Source: Ruegeria arenilitoris
GTDB taxonomy: Bacteria > Pseudomonadota > Alphaproteobacteria > Rhodobacterales > Rhodobacteraceae
DNA length: 64,000 nt
Assembly (NCBI RefSeq): GCF_013035315.1
Contig: NZ_WQHP01000002.1
Span: forward strand, 528,149 to 592,148
Direction of reading: 5' to 3'
Of the stretch, positions 34,095-57,410 are shown piece by piece (positions within the stretch are counted from its first letter, which is position 1; every line of letters starts with the position of its first letter). The position numbers were made by a program, and so were the translations under genes. Below the pieces are notes generated by a model. It did not search any database, was not told the origin of the DNA, and saw only the letters and a program-made list of their open reading frames with translations.

Positions 34095-34098
34095 GATC

Positions 34099-35772
34099 AT
34101 GACCAATATCACTGGCGGCGAGGCCGTCAATCGCGTGCTCAAGGCCAACGGGATCGACACTGTGTTCGGGCTGTTGGGTGGCTCGATGCTGGAACTCTAT
34201 GACGCCATGTATCAGGGCGGCGAGGTCGCCTATGTCGGTGCCCGGGATGAACGCGCGGCGGGACACATGGCGGATGCCTGGGCGCGGATGACTGGCAAAC
34301 CCGGCGTCGTTCTGGGCGCGCAGGCGGGGCCGGGTGTGGTCAATATCGTGACGGCCGTGGCCGAAGCACAACTGGCCTATTCCCCGCTGGTGGTCATTGC
34401 AGGGGCGATCACGCGGGCGGATCAGCACAAGGACACCTTTCAAGAGGTCGATCAGGTGGCGCTGTTTGCCCCGATCTGCAAGCGCTCGGTCATGGTCACC
34501 GACCCGTCGCGCCTTGCGCCGATGCTGGAAGATGCGATCCGGCTGGCCAACTCGGGCCGTCGTGGGCCGGTCGTTTTGCACGTGCCGCGCGATCTGTTTG
34601 CAGCCGAAGTGCCCACGATTGAGCCCGCGCCGGTGAACATCGCACGCCCCGGACCCGCGTCACCCGCAGACGTAGCCGCAATTGCAGAGCTTTTGCACGG
34701 CGCGAAACGCCCGGTGATCTTTGCGGGCGGCGGTTTCAAGTGGGGCCAGGGGCGCGACGCTCTGACCGCTTTGGCCGAGGCGATGGAGATACCGGTCGTC
34801 GCCTCGACCGGTCATGCCGACGTGATGCGCCACGGCCATCCGTGGTTTGCGGGGCAAGCCGGGCCACGCGGAAACCGGGTGGCCAGCCGACTGACGAAAC
34901 AAGCCGATGTGATGGTCGTTCTGGGCGCACGGTTGGGTTTCAACTCGACCTTCCACAGCAATGACTACGTGGGGGCCGAGACCCGCATCGCCCATGTGGA
35001 CATAGATGGATCGGCAGTCGGGCGTTACTTCCCCGCCGAGGTCGCAGTTCAAGCCGATGCGCGCATGACGGCTGAGGCATTGACCGCGGCGACGGCCAGA
35101 CCCAATTGCGATGCCTGGCGCACGCAGTTCAAAGCCGATATGGACAGCCTGCGGGCCGAACGCGCGGAAGAGGCCGTAATCGAGACTCTGCCGATGCATC
35201 CCCGACGCGCGCTGGCTGAGCTTCGCGATGCGCTGCCCACAAACGCGATTGTCACACTGGATACCGGCAATACCTGCCTTCAGGCCGCCGATCGTCTGGC
35301 CCACTACGAACCCCGGTCGCTGATTACTCCGTTGGATTTCGGTCTGGTCGGATTTGGTCTGTCTGCCGCAATTGGTGCCAAAGCGGCGGCACCGGATCGC
35401 CCGGTTGTGGCGGTCATGGGCGACGGCGCTGTGGGCTATACGATGATCGAAATCCAGACCGCCGTCTCCAATGATCTTCCGGTGATTATCGTGGTTCTGG
35501 ATAACGAGGCCTGGGGGGCCGAAAAAGCCTATCAGCAAGAGTTTTATGGCGGCCGTCTGCTGGGCGCGGAAATTCAAAGCCCGCGCTATGACAAATTCGC
35601 GGAGCTATGCGGCGGCAAAGGCATCTGGGTTGATGGTCCGGGCGGCATGGGTCCGGCGTTGACCAAGGCGATAGAGTCCGGGCAAACAACTGTCATACAG
35701 GCAAAAATTGATCCCGGAGCGTTGATGACACTGCGCAAGGATCTGTTCAAATCACCACAGAACGACGCCTGA
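34099..35772 (+). CDS. Thiamine-diphosphate-dependent enzyme, acetolactate-synthase-like
   Basis: 557 residues from the ATG at 34099; the open frame extends into the previous gene. The three ThDP-enzyme domains are visible: a Pyr domain with the catalytic-type Glu in GARDERAAGHMADAWARMTG, a central domain (RPVIFAGGGFKWGQGRDALT), and a PP domain with GDGAVGYTMIEIQTAVSNDL ending at DNEAWG (GDG...N for Mg-ThDP). The family includes acetolactate synthase, benzaldehyde lyase and sulfoacetaldehyde acetyltransferase. Placement after two demethylating dehydrogenases suggests cleavage or ligation of a 2-keto or aldehyde product. Convergent with the AraC gene. Confidence 0.87.
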   Translation: MTNITGGEAVNRVLKANGIDTVFGLLGGSMLELYDAMYQGGEVAYVGARDERAAGHMADAWARMTGKPGVVLGAQAGPGVVNIVTAVAEAQLAYSPLVVIAGAITRADQHKDTFQEVDQVALFAPICKRSVMVTDPSRLAPMLEDAIRLANSGRRGPVVLHVPRDLFAAEVPTIEPAPVNIARPGPASPADVAAIAELLHGAKRPVIFAGGGFKWGQGRDALTALAEAMEIPVVASTGHADVMRHGHPWFAGQAGPRGNRVASRLTKQADVMVVLGARLGFNSTFHSNDYVGAETRIAHVDIDGSAVGRYFPAEVAVQADARMTAEALTAATARPNCDAWRTQFKADMDSLRAERAEEAVIETLPMHPRRALAELRDALPTNAIVTLDTGNTCLQAADRLAHYEPRSLITPLDFGLVGFGLSAAIGAKAAAPDRPVVAVMGDGAVGYTMIEIQTAVSNDLPVIIVVLDNEAWGAEKAYQQEFYGGRLLGAEIQSPRYDKFAELCGGKGIWVDGPGGMGPALTKAIESGQTTVIQAKIDPGALMTLRKDLFKSPQNDA

Positions 35773-36937: not shown

Positions 36938-38335
36938 ATGTCCGCATTACGCAGCTCACTTTTTTCGGCGTCGTTCATTGCAGCGACTTTATCCTATGCC
37001 CTGCCCGCCTCGGCTCAGGACGAGACGGCCCCTCAAACGCTGTTTACCAACGTGCATGTCTTCGACGGTGTGAATGAGCAACGCATTGAGAATGCCAGTG
37101 TTCTGGTCGAGGGCAATCTGATCAAGTCCGTCTCAACCGATGCCATTAATGCGCCGAGTGCGAAGGTTATCGACGGTGGCGGACGCACTCTGACACCGGG
37201 CTTTATCGAGAATCACGCGCATCTGATGCTCATGGGGCCATCGATTGCCGAGATGGAAACCAACTCGACCTGGGAGGATTTCGCCATCCACGGGACACGG
37301 ATGGCCGAAATGTACCTGATGCAGGGCTTCACGACCGTTCGCGATGCCGGGGGCGCTGGCGGCGGGCTGCGGCGCGCAATAGACGCCGGCCAGATCGTCG
37401 GCCCCCGCTTTTACCCTTCCGGGGCATTTCTCGGAACACGTGGTGGTCACGCCGATTTCGCATCCTTCACATCTCCGCCGGGCGGGGTGACCAATTTTGG
37501 CACTCTGAATATGGCCCAACAGGTCAACGGTGTTGATGAAATTTACATGTATGGCCGCAACAACTTGCGCATGGGTGCCACGCAACTGAAGTTCATGCAA
37601 TCGGGTGGGGTGATTTCGGCATTCGATCCATGGCAGTTGCTCGCCGGTTCGAAGGAAGAGATTGAGGCCGCTGTTCAGGTTGCCAACGAGTACGGCACCT
37701 ATGTCATGGCACATTCCTACCGCAAAGAAGCGATCATCAATGCCCTGAATGCAGGGGTCAGAACCATTGAACACGGATTTCACTTTGACTGTGAGATTTC
37801 TGCTTTGATGAAAGAAAAAGGAGCGTACATCACGACGAACATCACAGCATTTGATCCAGGCCTACTTGATGTTCCGTCCGTGAAAAACAACCCCAACAGT
37901 TTGAGGAAGGCCAAATCGGCCTCGGCGACCTTCGAAGCCTATATTCCCAGCATGAAGGAATGCCCGGCGCCGCGCGGGTTCCAAACCGATTGCGTGGGCT
38001 CAGTCGAGGCGTGCAACATTCAGATCGCCTACGAGAAGCATCTGAACAACCATTTCTTCGGCCCCTATGCGTCGATGGTAACCTTGACTTCGGTAGGCGG
38101 CGAGATCGCGGCACTTAGCGGTGATTTCATGAACCCCTATCCAGAAGGCAAACTGGGTGTGATCGAAGCAGGCGCCTATGCCGACATCCTACTGATAGAC
38201 GGCAACCCCCTCGAAGACTTCTCGGTCGTCGGCACGGGCGACCAGTGGTTCGGAGCCGACCCGAGACCTGAGAGCCCTGAAACCATTCGACTGATTATGA
38301 AAGATGGTGTGATATACAAAAACACGCTGGAATAA
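36938..38335 (+). CDS. Exported metal-dependent amidohydrolase (imidazolonepropionase/prolidase-like)
   Basis: 465 residues. Signal peptide ending SYALPASAQ, then an amidohydrolase TIM barrel with a complete metal site: HAH at 93-95 (FIENHAHL), a carboxylated-Lys candidate in TQLKFMQSGGV, His in YVMAHSYRKEA and IEHGF, and the catalytic Asp in GFQTDCVGS. The C-terminal beta-sandwich reads GKLGVIEAGAYADILLIDGN. Related enzymes cleave N-acylated amino acids or dipeptides. Export suggests action on an external substrate before uptake. AAGGTG precedes the start; the DUF3299 gene follows 26 bases after its stop, so this is probably one operon. Confidence 0.85.
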   Translation: MSALRSSLFSASFIAATLSYALPASAQDETAPQTLFTNVHVFDGVNEQRIENASVLVEGNLIKSVSTDAINAPSAKVIDGGGRTLTPGFIENHAHLMLMGPSIAEMETNSTWEDFAIHGTRMAEMYLMQGFTTVRDAGGAGGGLRRAIDAGQIVGPRFYPSGAFLGTRGGHADFASFTSPPGGVTNFGTLNMAQQVNGVDEIYMYGRNNLRMGATQLKFMQSGGVISAFDPWQLLAGSKEEIEAAVQVANEYGTYVMAHSYRKEAIINALNAGVRTIEHGFHFDCEISALMKEKGAYITTNITAFDPGLLDVPSVKNNPNSLRKAKSASATFEAYIPSMKECPAPRGFQTDCVGSVEACNIQIAYEKHLNNHFFGPYASMVTLTSVGGEIAALSGDFMNPYPEGKLGVIEAGAYADILLIDGNPLEDFSVVGTGDQWFGADPRPESPETIRLIMKDGVIYKNTLE

Positions 38336-38361
38336 TCGGGACAGACAGCCGGAGAGTGGTT

Positions 38362-39126
38362 ATGGGCAATTGGTTTCGTTTCGCAGTGTTCGCGGGAATG
38401 GTCTGGGGCGCGCAACCCGCCTTTGCGACACCGGGGACGGTGCTTGACTGGACAGACCTGCCGGATCCGTCCGTTCAGGTCTTTGAGGACCCTTATCGCG
38501 ATCTTGGTCCGGAACAGTTCGACGATCTCCTCTACGTCGTTCGCTTGCGCGGCAGGTTGCAGCAGGATGCTGGCAGCGCTGAGGACAGGCAGAAATGGCA
38601 GGAGCTTTTGACCGAGACCGAGGACGCCTTGGCGGACGGAGGGATTGATGTCGACTGGCTGTTGGATCAGCGAGAGGTCGTGACCGAACGGCGCAGAAAG
38701 GCGGGCACCTATGGAAACCCGCAGATCGACGGTCAAACAGTCACTGTGGCAGGGTTTGCCATTCCGGCCCCCGCCGATCCAGACGGGCGACCGGTGGCTT
38801 ATCTGGTGCCGCAGCGCGGAATGTGCAGCCATTTGCCCCCGCCCCCGCCCAACCAGATGATCCGCGTGCGATTGAACGACGATTGGACGCCCAGTTATTT
38901 CCACGAGCCAGTGCGTCTGACAGGCGTCCTGACCATCTCACCGTCCGAACAAAGCATGATGGTCGTGGATGGTTTTATGCCCATGCACGCGACCTTTCAG
39001 CTGGACACGGACAGCGTTGAAACGCTGGAAACGCAGGGCGATCAACTGGAATGGAGCGACAGCGCGGCGGATCGCTTTCGCGCCGCACGGCAACGTAAAA
39101 CAGGTGGAGCACCAACATCCCAATGA
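38362..39126 (+). CDS. DUF3299 domain exported protein
   Basis: 254 residues from the ATG at 38362 (GGAGAG upstream); a GTG six bases earlier is possible. Signal peptide MGNWFRFAVFAGMVWGAQPA, a helical region, then the DUF3299 block with GFAIPAPADPDGRPVAYLVP followed by GMCSHLPPPPPNQMIRV. DUF3299 proteins are small periplasmic or lipoprotein-like domains found near transporters; their role is unknown. The stop overlaps the OprB-like porin start (ATGA), so production is coupled. Confidence 0.8.
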   Translation: MGNWFRFAVFAGMVWGAQPAFATPGTVLDWTDLPDPSVQVFEDPYRDLGPEQFDDLLYVVRLRGRLQQDAGSAEDRQKWQELLTETEDALADGGIDVDWLLDQREVVTERRRKAGTYGNPQIDGQTVTVAGFAIPAPADPDGRPVAYLVPQRGMCSHLPPPPPNQMIRVRLNDDWTPSYFHEPVRLTGVLTISPSEQSMMVVDGFMPMHATFQLDTDSVETLETQGDQLEWSDSAADRFRAARQRKTGGAPTSQ

Positions 39127-40304
39127 TAAGGCCCCTGATTGCTGCGCTTTTGACCTTTGCAACTGTCCAAGCGGCCTCGGCCCAAGGTCTGTCGGGGCCT
39201 TCCTCTGTCGGGGCCGAGCTTGAGCCCGGAGACGGCTTGACCGATCCGCAATATCGATCGGACTTTCCACGCAACATCGCGCCGGGTTGGTTCAATTGGA
39301 AGGATCGGTTGGCTGAAAACGGATTCCGCTTCAACTTTGACTATCTGGCACTGGGCCAAACGTCGGATGCCAATCTTGGAACAGGCGAAGCTGCTGGTGG
39401 TATCGCTAGGTTTTACGGAAACTGGCAGGCGACCGAGCGTGGCTCTGTGACGTTCAAGATCGAGGACAGGCATAGCTATACGGATGTGGCCCCTCAGTTT
39501 CTTGGACTGAATGGAGGGGCTTTGTCGATTACCGGGACCGCGTTCAACGACTCTGGATTGCTTCTCACCAACCTGTTTTGGACGCAGAGGGCCAGCAACG
39601 GTGCATGGACCCTTCAAATCGGGCAGATCGACGTGACGGATTTCGTTGATATCTATGGTCTTGTCAGCCCTTACAGCGGGTTTCAAAACCTTGCGTTCAA
39701 CACCAGCCCAACGATCAACACGCCAAATCAGGGCTTGGGTATTGCCGGGGGCCTGAAGCTCAACAACAACCTGTACCTTGTGGCCAGTTTGGCCGACGCG
39801 AACGCCGACCCGTCTGATCCTAACTTTGACGTTTTCAGTGACGGCAACCTCTTTAAATCGCTCGAGCTTGGGTACACGTCCGGGTTTGATCGTATCTACT
39901 TTGACAACATCCATCTGACGCTTTGGCATGCCGATGCCGCCGACGATGGCTCGCGCGCCGAAGACTATGGCGGGGCGTTTTCAGCCGCTTGGTTCATTGA
40001 CAATAAGTGGATGCCGTTTTTTCGCGCGGGGGTCTCCAAGGGAACTGCAGCGCTTTATCAGCGATCGGTTTCCACCGGCATAGGTTATTATGGTCGAAAC
40101 ACCGACCTTGCCGGGGTGGGCCTGAACTGGGCCGAAGCGCGCGGGATCAGCGGTGATCAGTTCACTGTTGAGGCTTTCTATCGTTTCTCGATCTCTCCGG
40201 GTCTGCAGGTCACGCCGTCTGTGCAGTTCATCTCAAACCCGCTGCAAAACCCGGATCAGGACAGTATCGCACTGTTCGGCCTTAGAACCCGCATCGTGTT
40301 CTGA
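39123..40304 (+). CDS. OprB-family carbohydrate-selective porin-like protein
   Basis: 393 residues. A signal peptide (MIRPLIAALLTFATVQAASA) is followed by an OprB-like body (DRLAENGFRFNFDYLALGQT, RFYGNWQATERGSVTFKIED, SPGLQVTPSVQFISNPLQNP) and a C-terminal strand ending in RTRIVF, the terminal Phe expected of a barrel. OprB porins pass sugars and other small solutes through the outer membrane. With the exported amidohydrolase and the DUF3299 protein it forms a surface-to-periplasm unit. The substrate is not given by sequence. Confidence 0.82.
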   Translation: MIRPLIAALLTFATVQAASAQGLSGPSSVGAELEPGDGLTDPQYRSDFPRNIAPGWFNWKDRLAENGFRFNFDYLALGQTSDANLGTGEAAGGIARFYGNWQATERGSVTFKIEDRHSYTDVAPQFLGLNGGALSITGTAFNDSGLLLTNLFWTQRASNGAWTLQIGQIDVTDFVDIYGLVSPYSGFQNLAFNTSPTINTPNQGLGIAGGLKLNNNLYLVASLADANADPSDPNFDVFSDGNLFKSLELGYTSGFDRIYFDNIHLTLWHADAADDGSRAEDYGGAFSAAWFIDNKWMPFFRAGVSKGTAALYQRSVSTGIGYYGRNTDLAGVGLNWAEARGISGDQFTVEAFYRFSISPGLQVTPSVQFISNPLQNPDQDSIALFGLRTRIVF

Positions 40305-40686
40305 GGCCGTTTTCCACGCGCGACATCGGGCTCAGCCGAAGACGTTCTTGTTTGATTGTGGTGGTGCCTATCGCACAGCACACCCAGCTAGAGCATCGGC
40401 GGTTTCGGTCCGGTCGCGCGCGCTTCAGCACTCGACTGGCTGATTTTTGATGCCCCATAGAAATCAGGGGCACCTGTTCATTGGCTTTGGTAAATCGCGG
40501 ATGTGTTGCGGGTGTTTCTTGCACGTAAAGAAGTTTGAAGACGGTGGTCATCATGCCGATAGATCGGCAAGCCCGCCGCTGTGCGGTTGGCATCTGCGCA
40601 ACGCCCTATGGTCGCTTTTTCCGTTGCCCGATTGTTGCTGACGGTCGCTGCGCAGAATATACAAGGCATTGTCGAGGAGTAACAAA
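40305..40686. other. Intergenic region upstream of the XRE-cupin regulator
   Basis: About 380 bases, GC-rich, with only short frames that show no domain. It should contain the end of the porin transcript and the promoter of the regulator, which has AGGAG at the expected distance from its ATG at 40687. No clear hairpin terminator or palindrome was found. Confidence 0.45.
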
Positions 40687-41325
40687 ATGGCGGACAAACC
40701 AAAGTCGGAGGCGACCGCGCGAGGTAAATCCGCTGGGCGAAATGCAGGCATCGGGCACGAGATCCGAGCAATGCGGCGCGCCATGGGAATGACGTTGAAC
40801 GACTGTGCCGAGGCCGCCTCGCTTTCGGTAGGATTCCTCAGCCTTGTCGAGCGCGGTCAAAAGCAACCCTCGTTGGAAGCACTGCAACGCATCAGTGCCG
40901 CCTTGGGCGTCGAAATCGGCTGGTTGTTCCCGCCCTCGCCAAACGATGATCCGATCGAAAACCAGTATATTGTGCGAAAAGGTTTTAGGCGGCGCATCGA
41001 TTATTCGCGGCTGTCCGGCACCGACTATCTTGGCGAGGTCGACTATCTGCTGTCTCCGTCAGTCGATGGCCAACTGGCCATGTCGCTGATGCAGTTCTCG
41101 CCCGGAGGACATTCCGGCGACAACCCTCTGTCCCATGAGGGCGAAGAAGTCGGCTATGTGCTGTCCGGTCAGCTGACCCTTGAGGTGGATGGCCATACAT
41201 TCGTGTTGGAGGAAGGCGACAGTTTCGGTTTTCCCGGACACAAGCCGCATCGGTACTGCAACAAAGGAATGGCCGATTTGCAGATCATACACACCAACAC
41301 GCCGGTCATTATGAAGGCCCGTTAA
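40687..41325 (+). CDS. XRE-family regulator with C-terminal cupin domain
   Basis: 212 residues from the ATG at 40687 (AGGAG eight bases upstream). Helix-turn-helix at about 25-80 (IRAMRRAMGMTLNDCAEAAS, LSVGFLSLVERGQKQPSLEA) and a cupin sensor domain (SHEGEEVGYVLSGQLTLEVD, GDSFGFPGHKPHRYCN). Such regulators often control polyamine, betaine or amino-acid catabolism by sensing a small ligand in the cupin. It converges with the Rieske gene. The palindrome at 42578-42603 between the Rieske and dehydrogenase genes is the best candidate site. Confidence 0.85.
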   Translation: MADKPKSEATARGKSAGRNAGIGHEIRAMRRAMGMTLNDCAEAASLSVGFLSLVERGQKQPSLEALQRISAALGVEIGWLFPPSPNDDPIENQYIVRKGFRRRIDYSRLSGTDYLGEVDYLLSPSVDGQLAMSLMQFSPGGHSGDNPLSHEGEEVGYVLSGQLTLEVDGHTFVLEEGDSFGFPGHKPHRYCNKGMADLQIIHTNTPVIMKAR

Positions 41326-42640: not shown

Positions 42641-45085
42641 ATGATGGATTCGGCTCGAGTGGTCGTGATTGGCGGCGGCAACATGGGGGCCAGCGTGCTG
42701 TATCATCTGGCCAGAGAGGGCTGGACCGACGTTGTTCTGATCGAAAAGGCCGAGCTGACTTCTGGGGCGACCTGGCATGCCGCCGGGCTGGTCAGCCGGA
42801 TGACACCGGGTCACGCGTTAGGCGTTTGTCACGACTATGCGGTCGATCTGTACAAGACCATCGAGGAAGAGACCGAACAGGGTGTCAGCTGGCACAATTG
42901 CGGATCCTTGCGGGTGGCAGCGACCGAGGATCACCGCGCCTGGCTGATGCACACGCGCGACGCGGTCTTGGCACGGGGTCAAGAATGTCACTGGGTTAAC
43001 CCGGAAGAGATCGGCGCGCTGAACCCGATCTCTGACACGTCGCAAATCATCGGCGGGATTTACACGCCCGATGATGGCCACGTTGACCCGTCCGGCACCT
43101 GTCAGGCCATGGCCAAGGGCGCGCGGCAGCGGGGGGCCAAGGTGATACGCCGCAACCGGGTGACGGATGTCCAGCAGACGCCCTCGGGCGAGTGGAAAGT
43201 GGTGACCGAACAGGGCGATATTCTGTGCGAGCATGTGGTCAACGCGGGCGGCTACCACGCGCGCCAGATCGGTGCCTTTAGCGGGCTGGACCTGCCAATT
43301 GTTCCCATGCAGCACCACTACGTGGTCACGGATACTGTGCACGAGTTCGAAGCGATGGATCACGAAATTCCGGTGACGCGCGACGATTATTTCACCGGCT
43401 ATCTGCGCCGCGAACAGGGTGGCGCGCTGATCGGGCTGTATGACACCCATGATGCTTTGGCCAAATGGCGCGATGGCTGCCCCTGGGACAGCGAGAATGA
43501 ACTGTTCGAGCCGGATTACGACCGGATCACCCCGTGGCTGGAAAAGTGCTTTGAACGGTATCCCGCGCTGATGGAGCGCGGCATCAAGCGGATCGTCAAC
43601 GGGGCGATCACCTATACACCGGACGGGCACCCACTGGTCGGGCCCGCGCCGGGGCTGCGCAATCACTGGCTGGCCTGCGGAGCGACGGTAGGCATTGCCT
43701 GGGGGCCGGGTCTGGGCCGGGCGTTGGCGCAGTGGATGGTGCATGGCACGGCTGAAATCTCGATGCGTGGCTTTGATCCGCGCCGCTTCCATAGTCGCGT
43801 GGACGAGGAATATGCCCATCAGCGCTGCCGCGAAAATTATATGACGCGCCTGTCCCTGCCCTACCCGCAGTTGCAGTATGAAACCTGCCGCGAGATCCGT
43901 ACGTCCGGCGTTCATGACCGCACCAAGGCCCTACATGCGGTGTTCGAAGAGGCGGGCGGTTGGGAACGTCCCCGCGTCTATGGCAAGCCCGAGTGGGAAG
44001 GCAATGAACCGAAATCGTGGAAGCGCGGCCCTTCTTGGGAGGCGGCACTCGCCGAGGCGTGTGCTGTGCATAAGGGCGTCGGCATCGGAGATTTCTCGGC
44101 CTTCTCGAAGTTTGAGATCACCGGGCCAGAGGCCGAAGACTATCTGAACCGCCTCTGCGCCAACCGGATTCCGAAAAAGACTGGCGGCACCTGTCTGACG
44201 CTGCTGCTAAATGAACAGGGCACGATCGAGGGCGAGGCCACGATTGCGCGGCTAGCCGAAGATCGGTTCTGGTTCGTGACCGGCGGCCCATCCGAACGGC
44301 GCATCTGGGACTGGATCACCGTTCATCAGCGCGGGACCGAGGATGTGACGGTTAAAAACCTGTCCGACGAATGGGGCATCCTGACTGTCGCGGGCCCCAA
44401 GGCCCGCGCAGTTCTCGCGCCGCTGATGGATGCCTCACTGAAGAACGCAGATTTTGGTTGGCTCAAGGCGCGCGAGATGACTGTTGCAGGCGTGGACCTG
44501 ATCGCTCTGCGCCTGTCTTTCTCGGGCGAATTGGCGTGGGAGCTGCACGCACCGATGGGTCAGCTTGGCACGCTATGGGACGCGCTTTGGGACGCGGGCC
44601 AGCCGCACGGCATGGTTCCCTTCGGCTCAAAAGCTCTGGAAATGATGCGAATGGAAAAAGCCTATCGCGGGGGGCATGAACTGGCCAATGACGCCAGCCC
44701 TGTCCACACCGATCAGATGCGTTTCGTGAAGTTCGACAAGGATTTCGTGGGGAAAGAGGCGCTGGCAAAACTGGTCGAAACGGACAGCTCCTCGGTCATT
44801 GCCTATCTCGATATCGAGATGGAGGGCACGGATGTTCTGGGCGGCGAGGCTGTCTATCTGAATGGCGAGAAGGTGGGCTCAATCTCATCGGGCGGCTTTG
44901 GTCCCGTGACCAGGCGCAATCTGGGATTTGCGTTCGTCAAACCCCATGCGGCCATGCCGGGCACCGAATTGGAAGTGATCGTCTTTGGCCAGATGCACAA
45001 GGCGACAGTTTTGGCCGACGCGGTACTTGATCCGCAAAACCTGCGACTGCGCGATGTAGCAGCCACCTTAGAGGTAGCGAAATGA
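42641..45085 (+). CDS. FAD-dependent dimethylglycine-dehydrogenase-like enzyme with GcvT domain (B)
   Basis: 814 residues from the ATG at 42641 (GGAG six bases upstream); a start at 42611 would add ten residues. FAD motif VVVIGGGNMGASVLYHLARE, covalent-flavin motif TSGATWHAAGL with H46, PDDGHVDPSGTCQAMAKGAR, then a GcvT domain with LRLSFSGELAWELHAP. The GcvT Asp is replaced (LLNEQGTIEGEATIARL). Its stop overlaps the M24 gene start by four bases. With the divergent Rieske oxygenase it suggests stepwise removal of N-methyl groups, with the formaldehyde equivalents passed to tetrahydrofolate. Substrate likely dimethylglycine or a similar tertiary amine. Confidence 0.87.
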   Translation: MMDSARVVVIGGGNMGASVLYHLAREGWTDVVLIEKAELTSGATWHAAGLVSRMTPGHALGVCHDYAVDLYKTIEEETEQGVSWHNCGSLRVAATEDHRAWLMHTRDAVLARGQECHWVNPEEIGALNPISDTSQIIGGIYTPDDGHVDPSGTCQAMAKGARQRGAKVIRRNRVTDVQQTPSGEWKVVTEQGDILCEHVVNAGGYHARQIGAFSGLDLPIVPMQHHYVVTDTVHEFEAMDHEIPVTRDDYFTGYLRREQGGALIGLYDTHDALAKWRDGCPWDSENELFEPDYDRITPWLEKCFERYPALMERGIKRIVNGAITYTPDGHPLVGPAPGLRNHWLACGATVGIAWGPGLGRALAQWMVHGTAEISMRGFDPRRFHSRVDEEYAHQRCRENYMTRLSLPYPQLQYETCREIRTSGVHDRTKALHAVFEEAGGWERPRVYGKPEWEGNEPKSWKRGPSWEAALAEACAVHKGVGIGDFSAFSKFEITGPEAEDYLNRLCANRIPKKTGGTCLTLLLNEQGTIEGEATIARLAEDRFWFVTGGPSERRIWDWITVHQRGTEDVTVKNLSDEWGILTVAGPKARAVLAPLMDASLKNADFGWLKAREMTVAGVDLIALRLSFSGELAWELHAPMGQLGTLWDALWDAGQPHGMVPFGSKALEMMRMEKAYRGGHELANDASPVHTDQMRFVKFDKDFVGKEALAKLVETDSSSVIAYLDIEMEGTDVLGGEAVYLNGEKVGSISSGGFGPVTRRNLGFAFVKPHAAMPGTELEVIVFGQMHKATVLADAVLDPQNLRLRDVAATLEVAK

Positions 45086-46293
45086 ACAAACATGAAGAAA
45101 TTTCCCAGTTTTCCAAGGCCGTTTTGCCCGCGCCGGAAATCGACTGGACCAAGCTGAACGATTACCGCATGGGCCGCATCCGCGAGGCGATGGCGGAACG
45201 GGATGTGGAACTGGCAGTGATAACCAATCCGCTCACCATGCGCTACGCGGTGAACTATCACGAATACATGCAGTTTCAGGCGCGCATCCCGCTGATGATG
45301 CTGATGGTCTTTGCCGATGGTCCGGTGGTGTTCAGCGGGGCGTTCATCAAGGATCTGGACCATGTGACCGAGTACATCCCGATGTTCGGTCTGGCCCCGT
45401 TCCTTGCGGGTTTTGACCAAACGGAGAATACCCGCAAATTCGTGGATTTCGTCAAAAGCCGGTTGCAGGGTAAAGGACGCTGCCGCGTGGCTCTGGATCG
45501 GTTGGATGCCTCAGCCGTTCAGGGATTGATGCAGGCCGGGTTTGAGGTTGTCGATGCCCCCGGTTTTCTGGAAAAGGCGCGGTCGATCAAGTCGGCCGAA
45601 GAGATCACGCTTTGCCGCTATGCTATCGACGTGGCGCAACTGGGCATTTCCCGGATGCACGAGGCGTTTCAGCCCGGCATTTCAGAGAATGAGCTGTGGA
45701 GCATTCTGAGCCAGGTCAATATCGCCCATGGCGGCCTGTGGTCTGAGGCGCGGATGCTGGCCTCGGGGGAGCGGACGAACCCGTGGCTGCAAGAGGCCGG
45801 CGAGCGGCGGGTGCAAAAGGGCGAGTTGCTTGGGTTCGATACCGACATGGTCGGCCCGTTTGGGTACATGTCCGACATCTCGCGCACCTGGTATTGCGGC
45901 GCGGGCAAAGCGCCGGATGCGTTCCGCGATCTCTATAAACGCGCTTTGGACGAGATCGAGCACAACAAGGCCAACGTGCGCCCCGGTGTGACGTTCAAGG
46001 AACTGGTCGACAACAGCTTCCGCCACCCCGAAGAGTTCGTTGCCCACCGGTACCCCTGCATCATGCATGGCGTGGGGATGTGCGATGAATACCCCTATGT
46101 CCCCTATCCGCAGGATTGGGATGACATCGGTTATGACGGGATCATCGAAGAGAACATGATGATCTGCGTCGAGGGCTATGTCGGTTCCGATCGCGGCGGC
46201 AGCGGCGTCAAGATCGAGCATCAGTTTCTGGTCACAGCAGATGGTCTGGAACAACTCGACAGCTATCCCTATGACGAAAACCTGATGCGCTAG
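45082..46293 (+). CDS. M24 metallopeptidase-fold protein, DddP-like
   Basis: 403 residues. Creatinase/aminopeptidase-P fold. Putative metal ligands D253, D255, D265 (GFDTDMVGPFGYMSD), H329 (IMHGVG), E364 (ICVEG) and E379 (KIEHQF), plus D335 in MCDEYP. By memory, the DMSP lyase DddP has its ligands at 295, 297, 307, 371, 406 and 421 with catalytic Asp377; every spacing here is identical with an offset of 42. ASGERTNPWLQEAGERRVQK and the C-terminal SYPYDENLM also resemble DddP. It is encoded in an overlapping pair with the FAD/GcvT dehydrogenase. Alternatives: a DddP paralog hydrolysing or cleaving a betaine-like compound, or a creatinase-type enzyme. Confidence 0.8.
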   Translation: MNKHEEISQFSKAVLPAPEIDWTKLNDYRMGRIREAMAERDVELAVITNPLTMRYAVNYHEYMQFQARIPLMMLMVFADGPVVFSGAFIKDLDHVTEYIPMFGLAPFLAGFDQTENTRKFVDFVKSRLQGKGRCRVALDRLDASAVQGLMQAGFEVVDAPGFLEKARSIKSAEEITLCRYAIDVAQLGISRMHEAFQPGISENELWSILSQVNIAHGGLWSEARMLASGERTNPWLQEAGERRVQKGELLGFDTDMVGPFGYMSDISRTWYCGAGKAPDAFRDLYKRALDEIEHNKANVRPGVTFKELVDNSFRHPEEFVAHRYPCIMHGVGMCDEYPYVPYPQDWDDIGYDGIIEENMMICVEGYVGSDRGGSGVKIEHQFLVTADGLEQLDSYPYDENLMR

Positions 46294-46427: not shown

Positions 46428-47945
46428 TCATTTCTTTCCCGCAACAATACGGTCAAGGATGAGCGCGCAGAACAAAATTGCCAGACCGGCCAGAATACCC
46501 TGACCCGCCGCAGCGTATTGCAGCGCTTCCAGCACGTCTTCGCCCAGGCCCTTGGCGCCGATCAGAGATGCGACAACAACCATCGCAAGCGACATCAGAA
46601 TGGTTTGGTTTACCCCGGCCATGATCGTCTTGTGCGCCAGCGGCAGATCAACTCTCCACAACAGATAACGTGGTGTCGCGCCAAAGGCCAATGCAGCCTC
46701 GCGCACTGTCTCGGGCACTTGCTGCAGGCCCAGAACAGTAAAGCGGATGACCGGCGGGCTGCCGAAGATCATCGTCGCCACGACGCCCGCTGGTTTGCCG
46801 GACCCGATGAAAGCGACAACCGGGATCAGGTACACGAATGACGGCATCGACTGCATGAAGTCCAGAATTGGTCGCACAATCGCAAAAGCGCGCGGACGCC
46901 GTGCGCAATAGATGCCGAGCGGAATACCCAGCGTGATGGAAATCAGCGCCGCAGCCCCCAGCAAGGCGATTGTTGTCATTGCCTTTTCCCAGAAATCCAG
47001 CAGCCCGAGATAGGCCAGCGCGGCACCGGTGAAGATCGCGACGCGCGGCCCTGCGGAAAGGTAAGCCAGCATGATGATCACCAGCGCAACCACCGGCCAC
47101 GGTGTGTCGACCAGCACCACCTCGATCCAGTCCAGCAGCGTGCGCATTCCATAGGTCAGCCCGTCAAAAAAGCCGCGGCCTGCGGTCTTTGTCCACTCAA
47201 ACACGGCCTGCACGCCATCGCCGACATTTAACCGCCAATCGCGGTTTGTCGGGAATGTTTTCAGAATGGCCAGCGCGTCCGGTTGCGCGAATTTGATGGT
47301 CGACAACACGACAACCACCAGAGTCAGCGCAGAGGCAACGACCATCCGGCTCACGGACCATCCATGCGCCACGCTGGAATCCGACCGCCAACGCGCGAAC
47401 TGGCCTTCCAAAGTCCAGTTCGCCAGTGAGGCCGCCAGAAACTTGACCGCCAGCAGCAAAACGATGCCAACTGCCAGATAGGTGATACCGGTGGAATCTG
47501 CGTTCTGGGCGGCTTCCTGTGCTCCGACCAATGCGCTTTCCAGCGACTCGGCCGCGCGCTTGAGTGAATCCAGTGATGCTGCACCGGACTGTTCTGCCGC
47601 TTCGATCTGTTGCCGTCGCAGCGACAGGGTTTGCTCGATCTGGTCGGCCCGTTCGCGGAATTCACGACCAAGATCGCCGAACAATCCCAATCCGATCTGA
47701 ATGTAGGCGAGCGTTTCAAGCACCAGAAAAGCCAAGAACCACGACCAGAGGCCACGTGCGCCGAACCAGATCGGGCCGAGAATGGCCGCGGCCTTGTTCA
47801 GAGTGAACCGATAGCCGGGTGCCTGCATCATATAGGCAAAGGTTTTCTGGTAGTAGGCTTGGCTCTGCCCGACAAAATCACCGATCAACCCTTCCAGACG
47901 GTCGGCGGTTTCAGGTTGGACCTGTTGTGCATCAACGTGTTTCAT
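46428..47945 (-). CDS. Glycine betaine/proline-type ABC permease with extra N-terminal domain
   Basis: 505 residues, about 150 more than typical ProW. Residues 20-90 (YYQKTFAYMMQAPGYRFTLN, KAAAILGPIWFGARGLWSWF) look like a DUF2628-type membrane segment. Residues 91-150 are a charged, probably coiled-coil stretch (REFRERADQIEQTLSLRRQQ). The ProW core follows, with TLGIPLGIYCARRPRAFAIV, PILDFMQSMPSFVYLIPVVA and the EAA loop EAALAFGATPRYLLWRVDLP. It ends the operon after the binding protein and ATPase. It imports a betaine-type osmolyte; DMSP or choline are also possible cargos. Confidence 0.85.
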   Translation of the reverse strand: MKHVDAQQVQPETADRLEGLIGDFVGQSQAYYQKTFAYMMQAPGYRFTLNKAAAILGPIWFGARGLWSWFLAFLVLETLAYIQIGLGLFGDLGREFRERADQIEQTLSLRRQQIEAAEQSGAASLDSLKRAAESLESALVGAQEAAQNADSTGITYLAVGIVLLLAVKFLAASLANWTLEGQFARWRSDSSVAHGWSVSRMVVASALTLVVVVLSTIKFAQPDALAILKTFPTNRDWRLNVGDGVQAVFEWTKTAGRGFFDGLTYGMRTLLDWIEVVLVDTPWPVVALVIIMLAYLSAGPRVAIFTGAALAYLGLLDFWEKAMTTIALLGAAALISITLGIPLGIYCARRPRAFAIVRPILDFMQSMPSFVYLIPVVAFIGSGKPAGVVATMIFGSPPVIRFTVLGLQQVPETVREAALAFGATPRYLLWRVDLPLAHKTIMAGVNQTILMSLAMVVVASLIGAKGLGEDVLEALQYAAAGQGILAGLAILFCALILDRIVAGKK

Positions 47946-47955
47946 CGTGGTCCCC

Positions 47956-49005
47956 TTATGCCTGACTGTCCTGGATCGCGCGGATGAGTCCCGCGCGGTT
48001 GATAACGCCTACGGTCTTGCCATCCTGTGTGACCGCCACAACGCCGTGTCCATCAACACAGAGGGTCATCAGGTCAGACAGGTCCATGTCCGGATGTGCC
48101 TCTTTGGCGTCGTCGGGAACCTCGCCATGATGCGCCTCGAACTCGTCCACCGGCTTCATAACCGCGTGGGCGAAAATCATGTTGAGCTTGGAGATGCCGG
48201 CAACGAAATCGGCAACGTAGTCGTCCGCCGGGTTCAGAATGATCTCTTCCGGCGTTCCGATCTGAACGATGCGCCCATCTTTCATGATCGCGATGCGATG
48301 ACCGATGCGGATCGCCTCATCGAGGTCATGGGTGATGAACATCGTGGTTTTGTTAAGCTTGTGGCTCAATTCCATGAACTGATCCTGCAATTGCTTGCGG
48401 ATCAGCGGATCGAGGGCCGAAAACGGCTCGTCCATCAGCAGGATTTCCGGGTCTGCGGCAATAGCGCGGGCAAGTCCGACACGCTGTTGCATGCCACCGG
48501 ACAGCTCATGCGCGTATTTGTCTTCCCAACCGCTGAGTTCCACCAGCTCAAGAACGCGATCCGCCTCTTCCCAGCGGCGTGCCTTGCCAGTGCCGCGAAT
48601 TTCCAGCGGCATGGCGACGTTATCGCGGACGGTTCTGTGGGGCATCAGGCCAAAGTTCTGGAACACCATGGCAACGCGCCGGTTCCGCAAATCGCGCAGG
48701 CCCTCATCGTTCAGGCCCATGACATCATCGCCATCCAGATAGATATGACCGTCGGTGGGTTCCAGCAGGCGGTTCACGTGACGTACCAGGGTCGATTTAC
48801 CCGACCCGGACAAACCCATGACGCAAAACAGCTCGCCGCGCTGGATCTCAAAGCTGGCATCAGCCACGCCGACGACGCAGTCGAACTGCTCCAGCACTTC
48901 GGCTTTGCTCAGCCCCTTGCGGTGAATGGCTTTCAGCGCTTCCTTTGCGCGTGCGCCGAACACCTTCCACACGCCGCGCGCATCAATTGCGATATCCGCC
49001 GTCAT
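47956..49005 (-). CDS. Glycine betaine/proline-type ABC ATPase (ProV-like)
   Basis: 349 residues. Walker A GLSGSGKST, Q-loop FQNFGLMPH, signature LSGGMQQRV, Walker B ILLMDEPFSALD, H-loop ITHDLDEA. An N-terminal extension before the ABC core (VWKVFGARAKEALKAIHRKG) is typical of ProV/OpuA. The C-terminal part (DLSDLMTLCVDGHGVVAVTQ) looks like a single CBS-type half. A hairpin separates it from the binding-protein gene; ten bases separate it from the permease gene. It energises betaine-type uptake. Confidence 0.9.
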   Translation of the reverse strand: MTADIAIDARGVWKVFGARAKEALKAIHRKGLSKAEVLEQFDCVVGVADASFEIQRGELFCVMGLSGSGKSTLVRHVNRLLEPTDGHIYLDGDDVMGLNDEGLRDLRNRRVAMVFQNFGLMPHRTVRDNVAMPLEIRGTGKARRWEEADRVLELVELSGWEDKYAHELSGGMQQRVGLARAIAADPEILLMDEPFSALDPLIRKQLQDQFMELSHKLNKTTMFITHDLDEAIRIGHRIAIMKDGRIVQIGTPEEIILNPADDYVADFVAGISKLNMIFAHAVMKPVDEFEAHHGEVPDDAKEAHPDMDLSDLMTLCVDGHGVVAVTQDGKTVGVINRAGLIRAIQDSQA

Positions 49006-49038
49006 ACTGGCCCCACTTTGGTCTAGCTTGTAAATTGA

Positions 49039-49062
49039 GCCCCCGGCGTACGGGCCGAGGGC
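49039..49062 (-). terminator. Intercistronic hairpin after the binding-protein gene
   Basis: 9-bp stem with one mismatch, GCCCCCGGC (49039-49047) / GCCGAGGGC (49054-49062), with a 6-base loop, inside the transporter operon. It probably attenuates transcription or protects the upstream binding-protein mRNA so that more binding protein is made than ATPase. Confidence 0.55.
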
Positions 49063-49071
49063 CTTTCGGTA

Positions 49072-50043
49072 TCAGTTGGTTTTCAGGCCAAGCCAGCCGT
49101 CGACCGTGTCACCGTTTGCGTTGATCCATTCGGCGACGACCTCATCGGTGTCGCGCCCTTTGACGACGACTTCATAGGTCAGGCCGCTCAGCTGACCGGC
49201 ATCCATGTCGATATTGGCAAGGAAAGACGCCGCAGCCGGGTTGCGCTGCTCCAGCGATTTCGAATGAGCAACGGTCACGGTTTTCACCGGCTCGCCAGTG
49301 CTGACATGCGATTTGTTGTACCAATCCGCATCCTGATCCGGCTGCACCATCTTGTAGGTTGCCGCGTCATGCTCGGGTTCTTCCAGAATGGTCACGTCGT
49401 ACAGGGCGTGCACATAGTGCGGTGCGTAGCAGTAGAAGGCAGCGCCCTTTTTCTGGTCGATCTGATCCTTGAGGCGGGAATAGAAAACGGTCTCATCCTC
49501 GGTGGTGGGCGTCAGGAAGGTTTCGATACCATAGTCACGCACCCGCACCTTGAAGGTGTTGGTCGAAGCCCAGCCGGACGCGCCAACCCAAACCTCGCCC
49601 ATGCCATCGCCATCCGAGTCAAACAGCTCTTGCGCCACTGGGGTCGCCAGATCGTAGATCGATTTGATGTTGTGATCCTCGACCATGTAGTTCGGAACGC
49701 AAATCCCTGCACGGCCTTCGTAGTTGCCGGACGACAGCGCGACGGTGCCTTTCTGATCGACGTATTCGTCGGTGAAGGACGACTGGTTCGGCAACCACAC
49801 GTCCGGATGCACGTCGATATCCCCGCGCCCGCCGTCCATGGCGGCAAAAATCACCGCATTCGCGCCCGGCGCGTAGCCGACCTCTCCGCCCAATCGCGTT
49901 TCGATCACCTGCCCGATGACACGGCTCATGATTTTGGCGCCAGGCCAGCTGGGCTCACCCACCATGACCTTTTCCTGGGCCATCACCGACGTGGCCCCCA
50001 AGGCCAAGGCCATTGTTGCTGTGAGTGTTGTCAGTCTTTTCAT
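49072..50043 (-). CDS. Glycine betaine/proline-type substrate-binding protein (ProX/OpuAC-like)
   Basis: 323 residues. Signal peptide MKRLTTLTATMALALGATSV ending before QEKVMV. The body has the pattern of periplasmic quaternary-amine receptors: EPSWPGAKIMSRVIGQVIET, AAMDGGRGDIDVHPDVWLPN, several Trp and Tyr residues that can build an aromatic cage (ASGWAST, DWYNKS, YCYAPHYV). GGGAGA precedes the start. It leads the ATPase and permease genes, and the DUF1989-GcvT fusion gene ends 36 bases upstream of its start. Ligand candidates are glycine betaine, dimethylglycine, proline betaine and DMSP. Confidence 0.88.
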   Translation of the reverse strand: MKRLTTLTATMALALGATSVMAQEKVMVGEPSWPGAKIMSRVIGQVIETRLGGEVGYAPGANAVIFAAMDGGRGDIDVHPDVWLPNQSSFTDEYVDQKGTVALSSGNYEGRAGICVPNYMVEDHNIKSIYDLATPVAQELFDSDGDGMGEVWVGASGWASTNTFKVRVRDYGIETFLTPTTEDETVFYSRLKDQIDQKKGAAFYCYAPHYVHALYDVTILEEPEHDAATYKMVQPDQDADWYNKSHVSTGEPVKTVTVAHSKSLEQRNPAAASFLANIDMDAGQLSGLTYEVVVKGRDTDEVVAEWINANGDTVDGWLGLKTN

Positions 50044-50079: not shown

Positions 50080-52404
50080 TCAGGCGCGTGCCCGCTTGCG
50101 TTGCGGGTCTATGAAAGGAATGTCCGATACCGTTGCCCCCAAGCGTTTCATCCGCCCGTCGAGTTGCCCGATTTCCAGTTGGGTGCCGTTGTCTGCGTGC
50201 TCGACCGACAGGTGCGCAATTGCGATCGCGTGCTCCAACATCGGTGAGCGGGTGGCTGATGTGACGACGCCGATCTGCCGTTCGCCTGCAAAAACCGGGG
50301 TGCCGTGTGCCGGCACGTCATCGCACCCGATCAATAGCCCTTTGAGGGCGCGGCGCGGTTCGCGCGCGTTTCTTTCAAGGGCCGCTTTGCCCGTGAAATT
50401 GTTCTTGGTCAGATCGACGGCAAACCCCAACCCGGCCTCGAATGCATCAATACCCGGCGCGAACTCGGCGTTTGCCGCAGCCAGCCCGGCCTCGATCCGG
50501 ATGATCTCCAGCGCGGCGGACCCCATGGGGGTGACGCCAAACTCTTCACCCGCGCTCATGACCGCGTCCCAAATCGCCACCGCATCGGACTTGGCACAGA
50601 AAATCTCGTAGCCCAACTCGCCAGTGTAGCCCGACCGCGATAGCATGAACGGTGCCCCCTCGCGATCGTTGAGCCGCGCGATTGTGACGCCAAACCACTT
50701 CAGATCATCAAGCGATGGCACATGCGGTTGCGTGAAGGTGATCTTGCGCAGCAGATCGCGCGATTTTGGCCCCTGAATGGCGAGATTTGGCATCGCGTTC
50801 CGCACGGCATGGACACGAACCTGCAGATCCAGTTCCGATGCCAAGGCCTGCAATGTGCGGCCGCTTTCCTCGGACCCGCAGCACCAGCGGAAAAGCTCGG
50901 GCGCAAGCCGGAATAGGGTTCCGTCATCGATGACAGACCCGCTTTCGTCGCACATCAGAGTATATGACCCACGCCAAACCGGCAGTTTGGCTACATTGCG
51001 CGTTGTTGCCTGTTGCAACAGCTTCTCAGCGTCGGGTCCGACAATATCGAATTTGCGCAAACCGCTCATGTCCTGAACCGTGACCCGTTCGCGGCAGGCC
51101 CAGTATTCACCAAGCGTCCCATAGGCAGGAAAACTGACTGGCGTCCAAAGGTCGCGCGCAGGCGCGAACTGCTGAGTCAAAGGGGCAAGGCGGTCGTGAA
51201 ACGCGGATTCCTGACTGATCGACATCGGAGCATCTTCCTTTTCACGATAAGCAACCGCACGGCGGATTGGCGTTTCCGGGCGGTAGATGCGGACATGCAC
51301 ATCCGTCGGGTTCCAGCCATTGATTGGGTCAATGTCGTCCGGGCAGGCAGTCGAAACGCAGACCAAATCTTCCATCGCGCGCATGACGACGTAATCGCCG
51401 GGGCGAGAGTGAGACTCTTCCGTAAGAATGTGATGCGTTGTCGGATCGATCCACGTGTTCCAGAAAAAGTTGATCGCAGGCCACGCCGAACGACGTGCAA
51501 CGCCATAAGGTGCCAACGTATTGGACATATTGTCGGAACAGTTCACATGACCGGGGAAACCACGTTCTTCATAGCCGCGCGCGGTACAGGCCAGGCCAAA
51601 CGTGTCGTGACGCCCGCACGTGTCCTGAACGACGTTAAGAAGTGGCCGCATCTCTCGATCATAGAACTTGTCCAGCAATCCGGGACCAGGATAGGCGCGG
51701 CGCACCATCGATCGGGTTGCTGTCGAGTCGATCATCCACTCGGCCCCCTGATCCAACCCATCCGAGCGCAAGGCCATGAAATCCGAGCATTGCTGCCCTT
51801 CGATGTCGATGATCTGGACGAATTCGCCAGCTTTCAGTTCGTAGGCCAACCCGGTCCCACGCGGCACTGTGAACTCGTCCCGGGTATCGCCCAGAAGCGG
51901 CGGCAACAGAGGGTAATCCGGGTCAGCGTGTTTGTGGGAAACCGTGACACAGCCGCTGTCAGTTCCTTCGATCAAATCGACAACAGTCACGGATCGGATC
52001 AACCAGATCACCACGGGTGTGTCGGTGCGCAGAACGATGGACTCGGACGTTACCGGCAGCCTGCAACTGGGAATGCGTTCCGACTGCCCTCCCCCGTTTG
52101 ACGCGATCCATGACGTCAAACGTTCGCTGCTGAAGGTGTCCGGATCAACTGCCCCGCTGGCCTCCAGGCTCAGACAGGAAAGCGCGGGCTGACCATTTAG
52201 AAAAGCAACGATCTCGAGTGCACTGTGCCCCGAGGTCGCTTCAACCGAAAGCAGGTCGCCCACATTGAGATCAACGCAATCCGCGTCGCGTGGCGCAAGC
52301 GTTAGTTTCCGGGCGCCAGATGCTTTGGGAAAGCCAGGGAATCTGCGTCCCGGGCTGCTAAACCCAGTATTCGTGAACGCGTGTAGGACGGCCGAACCTT
52401 GCAT
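50080..52404 (-). CDS. DUF1989-aminomethyltransferase (GcvT) fusion protein
   Basis: 774 residues. Residues about 175-385 are a DUF1989 (urea-carboxylase-associated) domain: FTVPRGTGLAYELKAGEFVQ, IEGQQCSDFMAL, DTCGRHDTFG, FPGHVNCSDNM. Residues about 30-90 (LTLAPRDADCVDLNVGDLLS) look like a second, degenerate copy of that domain's first third. The C-terminal half is GcvT-like: VTVQDMSGLRKFDIVGPDAE, SGSVIDDGTLFRL with the catalytic-type Asp, and SRSGYTGELGYEIF. There is no FAD domain. The fusion probably links an unknown C-N bond reaction to folate. It shares a divergent operator region with the LacI gene and lies upstream of the ABC genes. Confidence 0.82.
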   Translation of the reverse strand: MQGSAVLHAFTNTGFSSPGRRFPGFPKASGARKLTLAPRDADCVDLNVGDLLSVEATSGHSALEIVAFLNGQPALSCLSLEASGAVDPDTFSSERLTSWIASNGGGQSERIPSCRLPVTSESIVLRTDTPVVIWLIRSVTVVDLIEGTDSGCVTVSHKHADPDYPLLPPLLGDTRDEFTVPRGTGLAYELKAGEFVQIIDIEGQQCSDFMALRSDGLDQGAEWMIDSTATRSMVRRAYPGPGLLDKFYDREMRPLLNVVQDTCGRHDTFGLACTARGYEERGFPGHVNCSDNMSNTLAPYGVARRSAWPAINFFWNTWIDPTTHHILTEESHSRPGDYVVMRAMEDLVCVSTACPDDIDPINGWNPTDVHVRIYRPETPIRRAVAYREKEDAPMSISQESAFHDRLAPLTQQFAPARDLWTPVSFPAYGTLGEYWACRERVTVQDMSGLRKFDIVGPDAEKLLQQATTRNVAKLPVWRGSYTLMCDESGSVIDDGTLFRLAPELFRWCCGSEESGRTLQALASELDLQVRVHAVRNAMPNLAIQGPKSRDLLRKITFTQPHVPSLDDLKWFGVTIARLNDREGAPFMLSRSGYTGELGYEIFCAKSDAVAIWDAVMSAGEEFGVTPMGSAALEIIRIEAGLAAANAEFAPGIDAFEAGLGFAVDLTKNNFTGKAALERNAREPRRALKGLLIGCDDVPAHGTPVFAGERQIGVVTSATRSPMLEHAIAIAHLSVEHADNGTQLEIGQLDGRMKRLGATVSDIPFIDPQRKRARA

Positions 52405-56562: not shown

Positions 56563-56770
56563 TCCCGTTCTCCCCTAGACCCAAGATTATCCATCCTGAT
56601 CTATTGAATCCATAGTTCTGCTATTCGCCCTATACCAAATCGCATATTTGAGGCGCCGGTCAGGCTTCGACAAAGTCAGATTTTTCATGACGGAGACCAA
56701 GCATGGTAACCAATAGACGCTGACACTGTGTGGGCGATGAGGTGGTGCGTGGCGGTGTGGAGTATTCGTC

Positions 56771-57403
56771 ATGCAAGCTTTAAATCTACCCGTCATTCGA
56801 GTTGGCCGATCTGCGTGGAACAAAGGTCGGGTTATTGGCCAGAAGCGCCCGCTTTTGCCAAGGCATGTCTGGGCAATACGCGTTCGCTTAGAAATTTCAG
56901 AAGATCATAGGAACTTAGCACTCTTCAATTTAGCAATAGATAGTAAGCTCCGTGGTTGCGATCTTGTTCGCCTTAAAGTTGCAGACGTATTTGCCGCTGG
57001 ACAAGTAAAGGAACGCGCGTCTGTCAACCAAAGCAAGACAAAGATACCCGTTCGTTTTGAAATTAGTAGTGGTACGCGAAACTCGCTTTTGAATTGGCTG
57101 AAACAACCTGCGATGAAAAGATCCGAGTACTTGTGGCCAGGGCGTTTTCAGCATCGGCTGCATATTTCTACTCGTCAGTACGCGAGGTTGGTTCAGTCAT
57201 GGGTCGCTTCGATTGGGCTTGATCCCAGCCAATATGGGACCCATTCAATGCGACGCACAAAAGTGGCGCAGATTTATCGTAGAACAGGTAACTTGCGAGC
57301 AGTGCAGCTATTGCTTGGTCACACCAAGATGGACAGTACAGTGCGTTACCTGGGTGTAGACATCGAAGACGCACTCGCCATCGCGGAAGCCACCGAGGTG
57401 TGA
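56771..57403 (+). CDS. Minimal tyrosine recombinase/integrase
   Basis: 210 residues, essentially only the catalytic domain. Candidate active-site residues: R61 (LRGCDLVRLKV), K89 (NQSKTKIP), H158 and R161 (HSMRR), H184 (LLGHTKMD) and nucleophile Y193 (VRYLG). No core-binding SAM-like domain precedes it. Such short integrases are frequent in Rhodobacteraceae. It sits between two reverse-strand cyclase genes and carries its own terminator, so it is an independent unit and may have moved here. Its recombination target is unknown. Confidence 0.85.
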   Translation: MQALNLPVIRVGRSAWNKGRVIGQKRPLLPRHVWAIRVRLEISEDHRNLALFNLAIDSKLRGCDLVRLKVADVFAAGQVKERASVNQSKTKIPVRFEISSGTRNSLLNWLKQPAMKRSEYLWPGRFQHRLHISTRQYARLVQSWVASIGLDPSQYGTHSMRRTKVAQIYRRTGNLRAVQLLLGHTKMDSTVRYLGVDIEDALAIAEATEV

Positions 57404-57410
57404 TCCATCA

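Follow-up and report, generated by a model that had tools for sequence, protein, structure and literature searches.

The gene dddP is the most abundant dimethylsulfoniopropionate (DMSP) lyase gene in the oceans; its product, DddP, yields dimethyl sulfide (DMS), a gas with the smell of the sea, and acrylate from DMSP. We describe here the DddP relative P0001, an M24 protein that is encoded in a 64,000-nucleotide stretch of the Ruegeria arenilitoris genome (NCBI RefSeq assembly GCF_013035315.1, contig NZ_WQHP01000002.1, positions 528,149 to 592,148 of the forward strand; herein the window). The DddP mechanism used for comparison is drawn from PMC5395565 and PMC4108388: the metal-ligand residues come from PMC4108388, whereas PMC5395565 describes the DMSP sulfur as bound by a Trp and a Tyr and the α proton as taken by an Asp. 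We read these three residues as Trp95, Tyr366, and Asp377; the number of the Trp is our own assignment. P0001 retains the ligand and catalytic positions of DddP, has a different loop in place of Trp95 to Asn99, branches in a lineage of its own, and lies in a conserved module with overlapping genes. Our best explanation, put forward tentatively and with slightly less than even confidence, is that P0001 would use DddP-type chemistry to break the C-N (or a similar C-X) bond of a carboxylated, betaine-like amine, DddP being a later, DMSP-adapted member of the family.

DddP-Type Residues and Fold of P0001

A first-pass annotation of the window had proposed that the six metal ligands and the catalytic-type Asp of DddP have counterparts in P0001 at a constant offset of 42 residues. 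All of them were found, together with a counterpart of Tyr366 (Table 1). Conservation of the metal ligands and of Tyr366, Asp377, and Lys419 reaches at least 97% across 218 rows of DddP and its family. In the two further M24 proteins of this genome that serve as the outgroup, the Tyr366, Asp377, and Lys419 columns read Ser/Arg, His/His, and Arg/Arg, and both the Asp297 and the Tyr366 counterparts that P0001 has are missing. Comparison of 16 DddP-side rows with 202 rows having Phe or Tyr at the Trp95 column gave positions that are conserved but different, among them (DddP/P0001; PDB: 4b28, 4rzy, 4s00, 4s01) Met92/Tyr62, Trp95/Phe65, Asn99/Ile69, Asp116/Gly86, Cys281/Ala239, and His333/Glu291; P0001 also differs from DddP in its shorter N terminus and its amine-type gene neighborhood. 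Trp95 is present in 44 of 257 aligned rows, 43 of which also have Asn99, and Asn99 occurs in none of the other 213. Since the ligands, Tyr366, Asp377, and Lys419 are conserved while Trp95 to Asn99 are replaced, the predicted catalytic core is common to P0001 and DddP and the loop is different.

The family scores agree with an M24 protein that falls short of DddP itself: P0001 gives 97.7 bits with Pfam PF00557 (Peptidase_M24; cut-off 23) and 298.6 bits with the NCBIfam DddP model NF043017, below the equivalog cut-off of 600. P0001 has the fold of RdDddP and RlDddP, and DddP is the nearer in fold by ∼10 Z units; a placement among creatinases or aminopeptidases was rejected. The first-pass annotation had named such a placement, or loss of the DddP pocket residues, as results that would refute its interpretation; the placement did not occur, whereas the pocket residues are partly lost.

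The main rival to DddP-type cleavage is a metal-dependent hydrolase, similar to creatinase or ectoine hydrolase, that opens an amide, amidine, or dipeptide of an N-methylated amino acid and feeds the demethylases. Isochorismatase-like and hydantoinase-like neighbors at some family loci are in keeping with such an enzyme, which we nevertheless judge unlikely in view of the fold comparison, of the score of only 39.1 bits (cut-off 613) with the ectoine hydrolase DoeA model TIGR02993, and of the Asp that the DddP and family rows have (at least 97%) where both outgroup M24 proteins have His. We take this His to be catalytic in M24 Xaa-Pro peptidases. Many members of the large DddP-like family are named Xaa-Pro peptidase in databases despite having Asp at this position; P0001, with D335 there, differs in the same way from M24 Xaa-Pro peptidases, DoeA, and creatinase.

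P0001 Branches Apart from the DddP of Its Own Genome

A separate protein on contig C22 of the same genome scores 920.7 bits on the DddP model and is a bona fide DddP; P0001 is 33% identical to it. This class (33 to 36% identity to P0001) was matched in all 37 genomes searched, its own and 36 of the same genus. The 20 DddPs fetched from the genus are 89 to 99% identical to that of R. arenilitoris, and every one of the resulting 21 sequences hits the DddP model with E ≤ 1e-170; the 75 members of alignment A3 likewise all match it, none better than E 3.7e-101. P0001 has copies at 94 to 95% identity in 2 of the 36 same-genus genomes and a 79-residue fragment (78%) in a third.

Relationships were estimated with a quick tree of 99 rows, in which support is given by the Shimodaira-Hasegawa-like approximate likelihood ratio test only and two very long outgroup branches leave the root unsure. 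P0001 pairs with its homolog at locus L044 and then with that at L045, outside a 35-row clade that holds DddP and all 34 Trp95 rows. Forcing P0001 and L044 into the DddP clade, a grouping chosen after the tree had been viewed, costs 84.75 log-likelihood units (approximately unbiased test, p = 0.0186). Rows lacking Trp95 are not monophyletic: with this rooting, the DddP side falls among them. By these family criteria, P0001 is a DddP-like family member that forms its own lineage and is not DddP.

A lyase acting on DMSP or dimethylsulfoxonium propionate (DMSOP), expressed with N-methyl catabolism as the substrates co-occur, would share with P0001 the DddP fold, all the metal ligands, Tyr366, and Asp377. 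We consider it quite improbable: the sulfur-binding Trp described in PMC5395565, taken as Trp95, is Phe in P0001; a bona fide DddP is encoded elsewhere in the genome; and relatives without Trp95 are also found in Bradyrhizobium, Mesorhizobium, and Acidimicrobiales. Of the two readings that the first-pass annotation had offered, the better fit is a DddP paralog acting on a betaine-like substrate, on the strength of the separate lineage, the replacement of Trp95 and Asn99, the DddP elsewhere in the genome, and the Rieske and dimethylglycine-dehydrogenase-like partners described below; DMSP cleavage wired into N-methyl catabolism is disfavored.

A Conserved Four-Gene Module

A survey with 13 window genes found genes for a helix-turn-helix (HTH)-cupin regulator, a Rieske oxygenase, a DAO-GcvT fusion, and the M24 protein together in the window and at L025, L026, L040, L041, and L043. 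The flanks vary from locus to locus, and L026 and L042 represent a single Ruegeria locus. The module thus recurs at 5 of the 6 loci whose M24 protein is 79 to 95% identical to P0001, with identities to the window of 48 to 96% (HTH-cupin), 62 to 97% (Rieske), 83 to 94% (DAO-GcvT), and 93 to 95% (M24). The DAO-GcvT and M24 genes overlap by 4 nt (ATGA), as expected from the translational coupling claimed in the first-pass annotation. Its further statement, that the M24 gene adjoins a Rieske oxygenase and a betaine importer, stands for the Rieske gene, which belongs to the conserved module, and not for the importer, which is a local neighbor outside it. No counterpart of the importer permease, the binding protein, or the trimethylamine N-oxide demethylase-like protein (Tdm) was found beside the M24 gene at the five other module loci, and the demethylase and importer were for this reason set aside as parts of the mechanism. 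L026 carries a different ATP-binding cassette (ABC) ATPase (36%), and betaine importers do occur near some other DddP-like family members.

Ratios of nonsynonymous to synonymous substitution (dN/dS) in five comparisons with the window are 0.031 to 0.052 for M24 and 0.064 to 0.116 for DAO-GcvT (dS 0.5 to 1.1); among L040, L041, and L043 they are 0.052 to 0.058 for M24, 0.067 to 0.073 for DAO-GcvT, and 0.031 to 0.042 for Rieske. Because dN/dS is low, the M24 gene is, by this measure, under strong purifying selection.

The DAO-GcvT protein resembles dimethylglycine dehydrogenase (PDB: 4p9s, 5l46), with a full-length match of 540 bits, and is one of 15 long DAO-GcvT-type matches in the genome, itself included. 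For the Rieske protein, the best PDB match is the carnitine monooxygenase CntA (134 bits), and it has a Tyr two residues before the bridging Glu, as in CntA (Y203/E205); PMC7948474 describes Y203 as binding the quaternary ammonium group. Of 32 clustered Rieske proteins, 25, this one included, have both the Tyr and the Glu. CntA, GbcA, and Stc2 belong to group V, and the Cys pair that PMC10952381 (also our source for the CntA residues) describes in some group V enzymes is absent here; an assignment as a GbcA-equivalog glycine betaine monooxygenase is unsupported (151.3 bits; cut-off 670). With dimethylglycine-dehydrogenase-like and CntA-type partners, the latter carrying the Tyr/Glu signature, the neighborhood has a quaternary amine as its predicted substrate.

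Amine Genes across the DddP-Like Family

The family comprises 3511 proteins at E ≤ 1e-20, probably including DddPs. Loci were taken as the best 80 of 545 in public genomes, 8 from plasmids, and 15 stretches from related genomes, and neighbors were counted within 8 kb; 37 of the 82 non-Trp95 loci had flanks too short for this distance and were dropped. A Rieske, DAO-GcvT, or MttB gene lies near 16 of the 45 flank-complete non-Trp95 loci and near none of the 21 genus DddP loci (Fisher p = 0.0013), with gene families defined from the DddP-like family's own loci, which favors these over the control. Adding betaine-type ABC ATPases gives 20 of 45 versus 0 of 21 (Fisher p = 0.0001); that class is loose (80 bits), hence the count without it. 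Amine genes also occur near 4 of 8 other Trp95 loci and, among 16 places without a residue label, near 4 of the 12 with full flanks (the four include the window and the locus L026/L042, which is present twice). Pooling all labels and leaving out the window and its close orthologs gives 21 of 58. The 8 kb on either side of the 21 genus DddP loci yielded none of nine recurrent neighbor families, a count in which DMSP and acrylate genes were not searched for; a DMSP wiring of the P0001 locus was set aside on the absence of these recurrent neighbors.

Wider flanks were retrieved for 20 alphaproteobacterial DddP-model matches, five of the stretches being short (L198, L203, L207, L209, and L210). 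Amine or betaine-import genes lie near 7 of the 14 that score 410 to 592 bits and near none of the 6 above 600; the seven include one doubtful case, L200, with weak ABC matches only (29 to 39% identity). At L202 a gap of 58 bp separates the end of a Rieske gene from the M24 gene that follows it on the same strand, and at L212 an MttB gene lies 15 bp from it. Four further rhizobial loci, outside the counts, were inspected. In Rhizobium, Rieske, reductase-type, and M24 genes stand in a row; three of four such loci have a betaine importer and a gene for 4-hydroxyproline epimerase close by, and the fourth has formaldehyde-detoxification genes and a DMSP_lyase-family cupin. MR_MLE neighbors resemble cis-3-hydroxyproline dehydratase (up to 433 bits; cut-off 500).

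Several points weigh against an amine-cleaving role for P0001 or against the comparisons used to argue for it. None of the four amine gene families lies within 8 kb of 25 of the 45 flank-complete non-Trp95 loci, and the 21 DddP control loci represent one orthologous place rather than independent events. Rhizobial relatives in Rieske/betaine clusters (L023, L190, L191, and L192) carry the DddP pair Trp95/Asn99; the pair thus follows the clade and not DMSP use, and we rejected it as a marker of the latter and slightly lowered our confidence in the favored explanation. The counterpart of Asp335 is Asn in P0008 and P0092 and Gly in a Sinorhizobium meliloti relative; the gene of this relative overlaps one of the isochorismatase family, an arrangement that would fit hydrolysis. 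The M24 gene is not always the most constrained, as the Rieske gene has the lower dN/dS among L040, L041, and L043. A same-genus genome (G001, L028:9084-9350) keeps the other three module genes (78 to 92%) with an M24 match that stops after residue 81, and the M24 gene would therefore be dispensable.

Finally, L044 has a 79% identical M24 gene and no module, as might be seen if P0001 were an unrelated housekeeping peptidase hitch-hiking with the cluster, an idea that the many Xaa-Pro peptidase names in databases also favor. We hold this to be the least probable explanation, and very improbable, since alphaproteobacterial M24 genes overlap by 4 nt with three kinds of oxidoreductase gene (DAO-GcvT at 3 loci, Rieske at 3, and HalD-like Fe/2-oxoglutarate at 5, with mechanically assigned starts), dN/dS is low, and Asp occupies the peptidase His position.

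Candidate Reaction and Possible Origin of DddP

For the favored amine cleavage, the following course can be envisaged. The Rieske protein would attack the quaternary amine, and the DAO-GcvT fusion would move N-methyl groups onto folate. P0001 would hold the substrate carboxylate on two predicted metals, with Asp335 as the predicted base taking the α proton; an amine would leave in place of DMS, so that C-N would be cleaved as DddP cleaves C-S. The bond broken, the preference for elimination over hydrolysis, and the substrate are what we infer from residues and gene context.

On a simple reading, DddP would have arisen within an amine-catabolic family, since the Trp95 clade has a nested position in the rooted tree and some of its members other than bona fide DddP lie near amine genes. 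This would fit the view, expressed in PMC5395565, that older pathways supplied the enzymes of DMSP metabolism; the neighborhoods and branching point to amine catabolism as a candidate older pathway for DddP. PMC10686828 gives a 40% identity rule for counting dddP. All 20 fetched alphaproteobacterial homologs pass it when measured against the DddP of the R. arenilitoris genome (a yardstick of our choosing and not a ratified sequence). Amine-demethylation or betaine-import genes lie near 7 of the 20, one case being doubtful; the homologs at L199, L202, L209, L210, and L212, which have such genes nearby, share 40 to 50% identity with that DddP. The rule may thus count amine enzymes as dddP, and some rule-passing homologs may well cleave DMSP. 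A more speculative proposal, which we regard as rather doubtful, is that DddP has its ancestry in a wide group of amine C-N lyases that take part in terrestrial and marine betaine catabolism, of which P0001 would be a living member, and that many genes counted as dddP by the 40% rule encode amine enzymes and not DMS producers. In the open-access literature we found no paper naming DddP with Rieske, or DddP with M24, betaine, and Rieske, although a description elsewhere is possible; nor did that on homarine, stachydrine, and proline-betaine yield a matching cluster.

Other Features of the Window and Related Loci

Table 1. Positions in the window of P0001, its aligned residues, and neighboring genes
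Feature	Positions	Strand	Remark
HTH-cupin regulator, module member	40669..41325	+	PuuR model 72.3 bits vs. 211
Rieske oxygenase alpha subunit, 400 aa	41332..42534	-	start inferred; longest open reading frame (ORF) to 42684
DAO-GcvT fusion, dimethylglycine-dehydrogenase-like	42641..45085	+	start inferred from orthologs; longest ORF from 42611
M24 protein P0001, 403 aa	45082..46293	+	DddP-like family, not DddP, by family criteria
F65 to I69, loop replacing DddP Trp95 to Asn99	45274..45288	+	257-row alignment
Metal ligands D253-x-D255 (DddP Asp295, Asp297)	45838..45846	+	alignment
Metal ligand D265 (DddP Asp307)	45874..45876	+	alignment
Y324 (DddP Tyr366)	46051..46053	+	alignment
Metal ligand H329 (DddP His371)	46066..46068	+	alignment
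D335 (DddP Asp377, proposed base; His in both outgroup M24 proteins)	46084..46086	+	
Metal ligand E364 (DddP Glu406)	46171..46173	+	alignment
Metal ligand E379 (DddP Glu421)	46216..46218	+	alignment
Betaine/choline-type ABC importer (permease, ATPase, OpuAC binding protein)	46428..50043	-	local neighbor
Trimethylamine N-oxide demethylase-like (Tdm)	50080..52404	-	1071.8 bits vs. cut-off 1100; local neighbor

The Tdm-like protein, encoded behind the betaine-type importer, is the only match of its kind in the genome at E ≤ 1e-60. Upstream of the module, positions 29287-35772 hold two more tandem DAO-GcvT-type proteins (32% and 44% identical to the module protein), followed by a thiamine pyrophosphate enzyme related to sulfoacetaldehyde acetyltransferase (399 bits vs. 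676); this region is probably a second N-methyl-compound cluster. A further Rieske and DAO-GcvT module of the same genome (L166:1775-11357; G000 contig C2) has three proteins resembling cis-3-hydroxy-L-proline dehydratase, and no P0001 match is listed on contig C2. Between the two clusters of the window, 36938-40304 encodes an amidohydrolase related to the Xaa-Pro dipeptidase model (175.6 bits vs. 500), a DUF3299 protein, and an OprB-type porin; these genes are kept in L025 and not in the other module loci.

Elsewhere in the family, a cluster on a Rhizobium plasmid that combines Rieske, reductase, M24, electron transfer flavoprotein, and formaldehyde-detoxification genes includes a Pfam DMSP_lyase cupin (L191:18196-18807; 186 bits), which brings two DMSP-lyase-related folds into one N-methyl-type cluster. 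At L076, L085, L097, L101, L104, and L117, mostly gammaproteobacterial, a Beta_elim_lyase (threonine-aldolase-type) gene adjoins the M24 gene on the same strand. Toward the end of the window (54682-59251), two adenylate/guanylate-cyclase proteins with tetratricopeptide repeat matches lie on either side of a short tyrosine-recombinase ORF (56771-57403).

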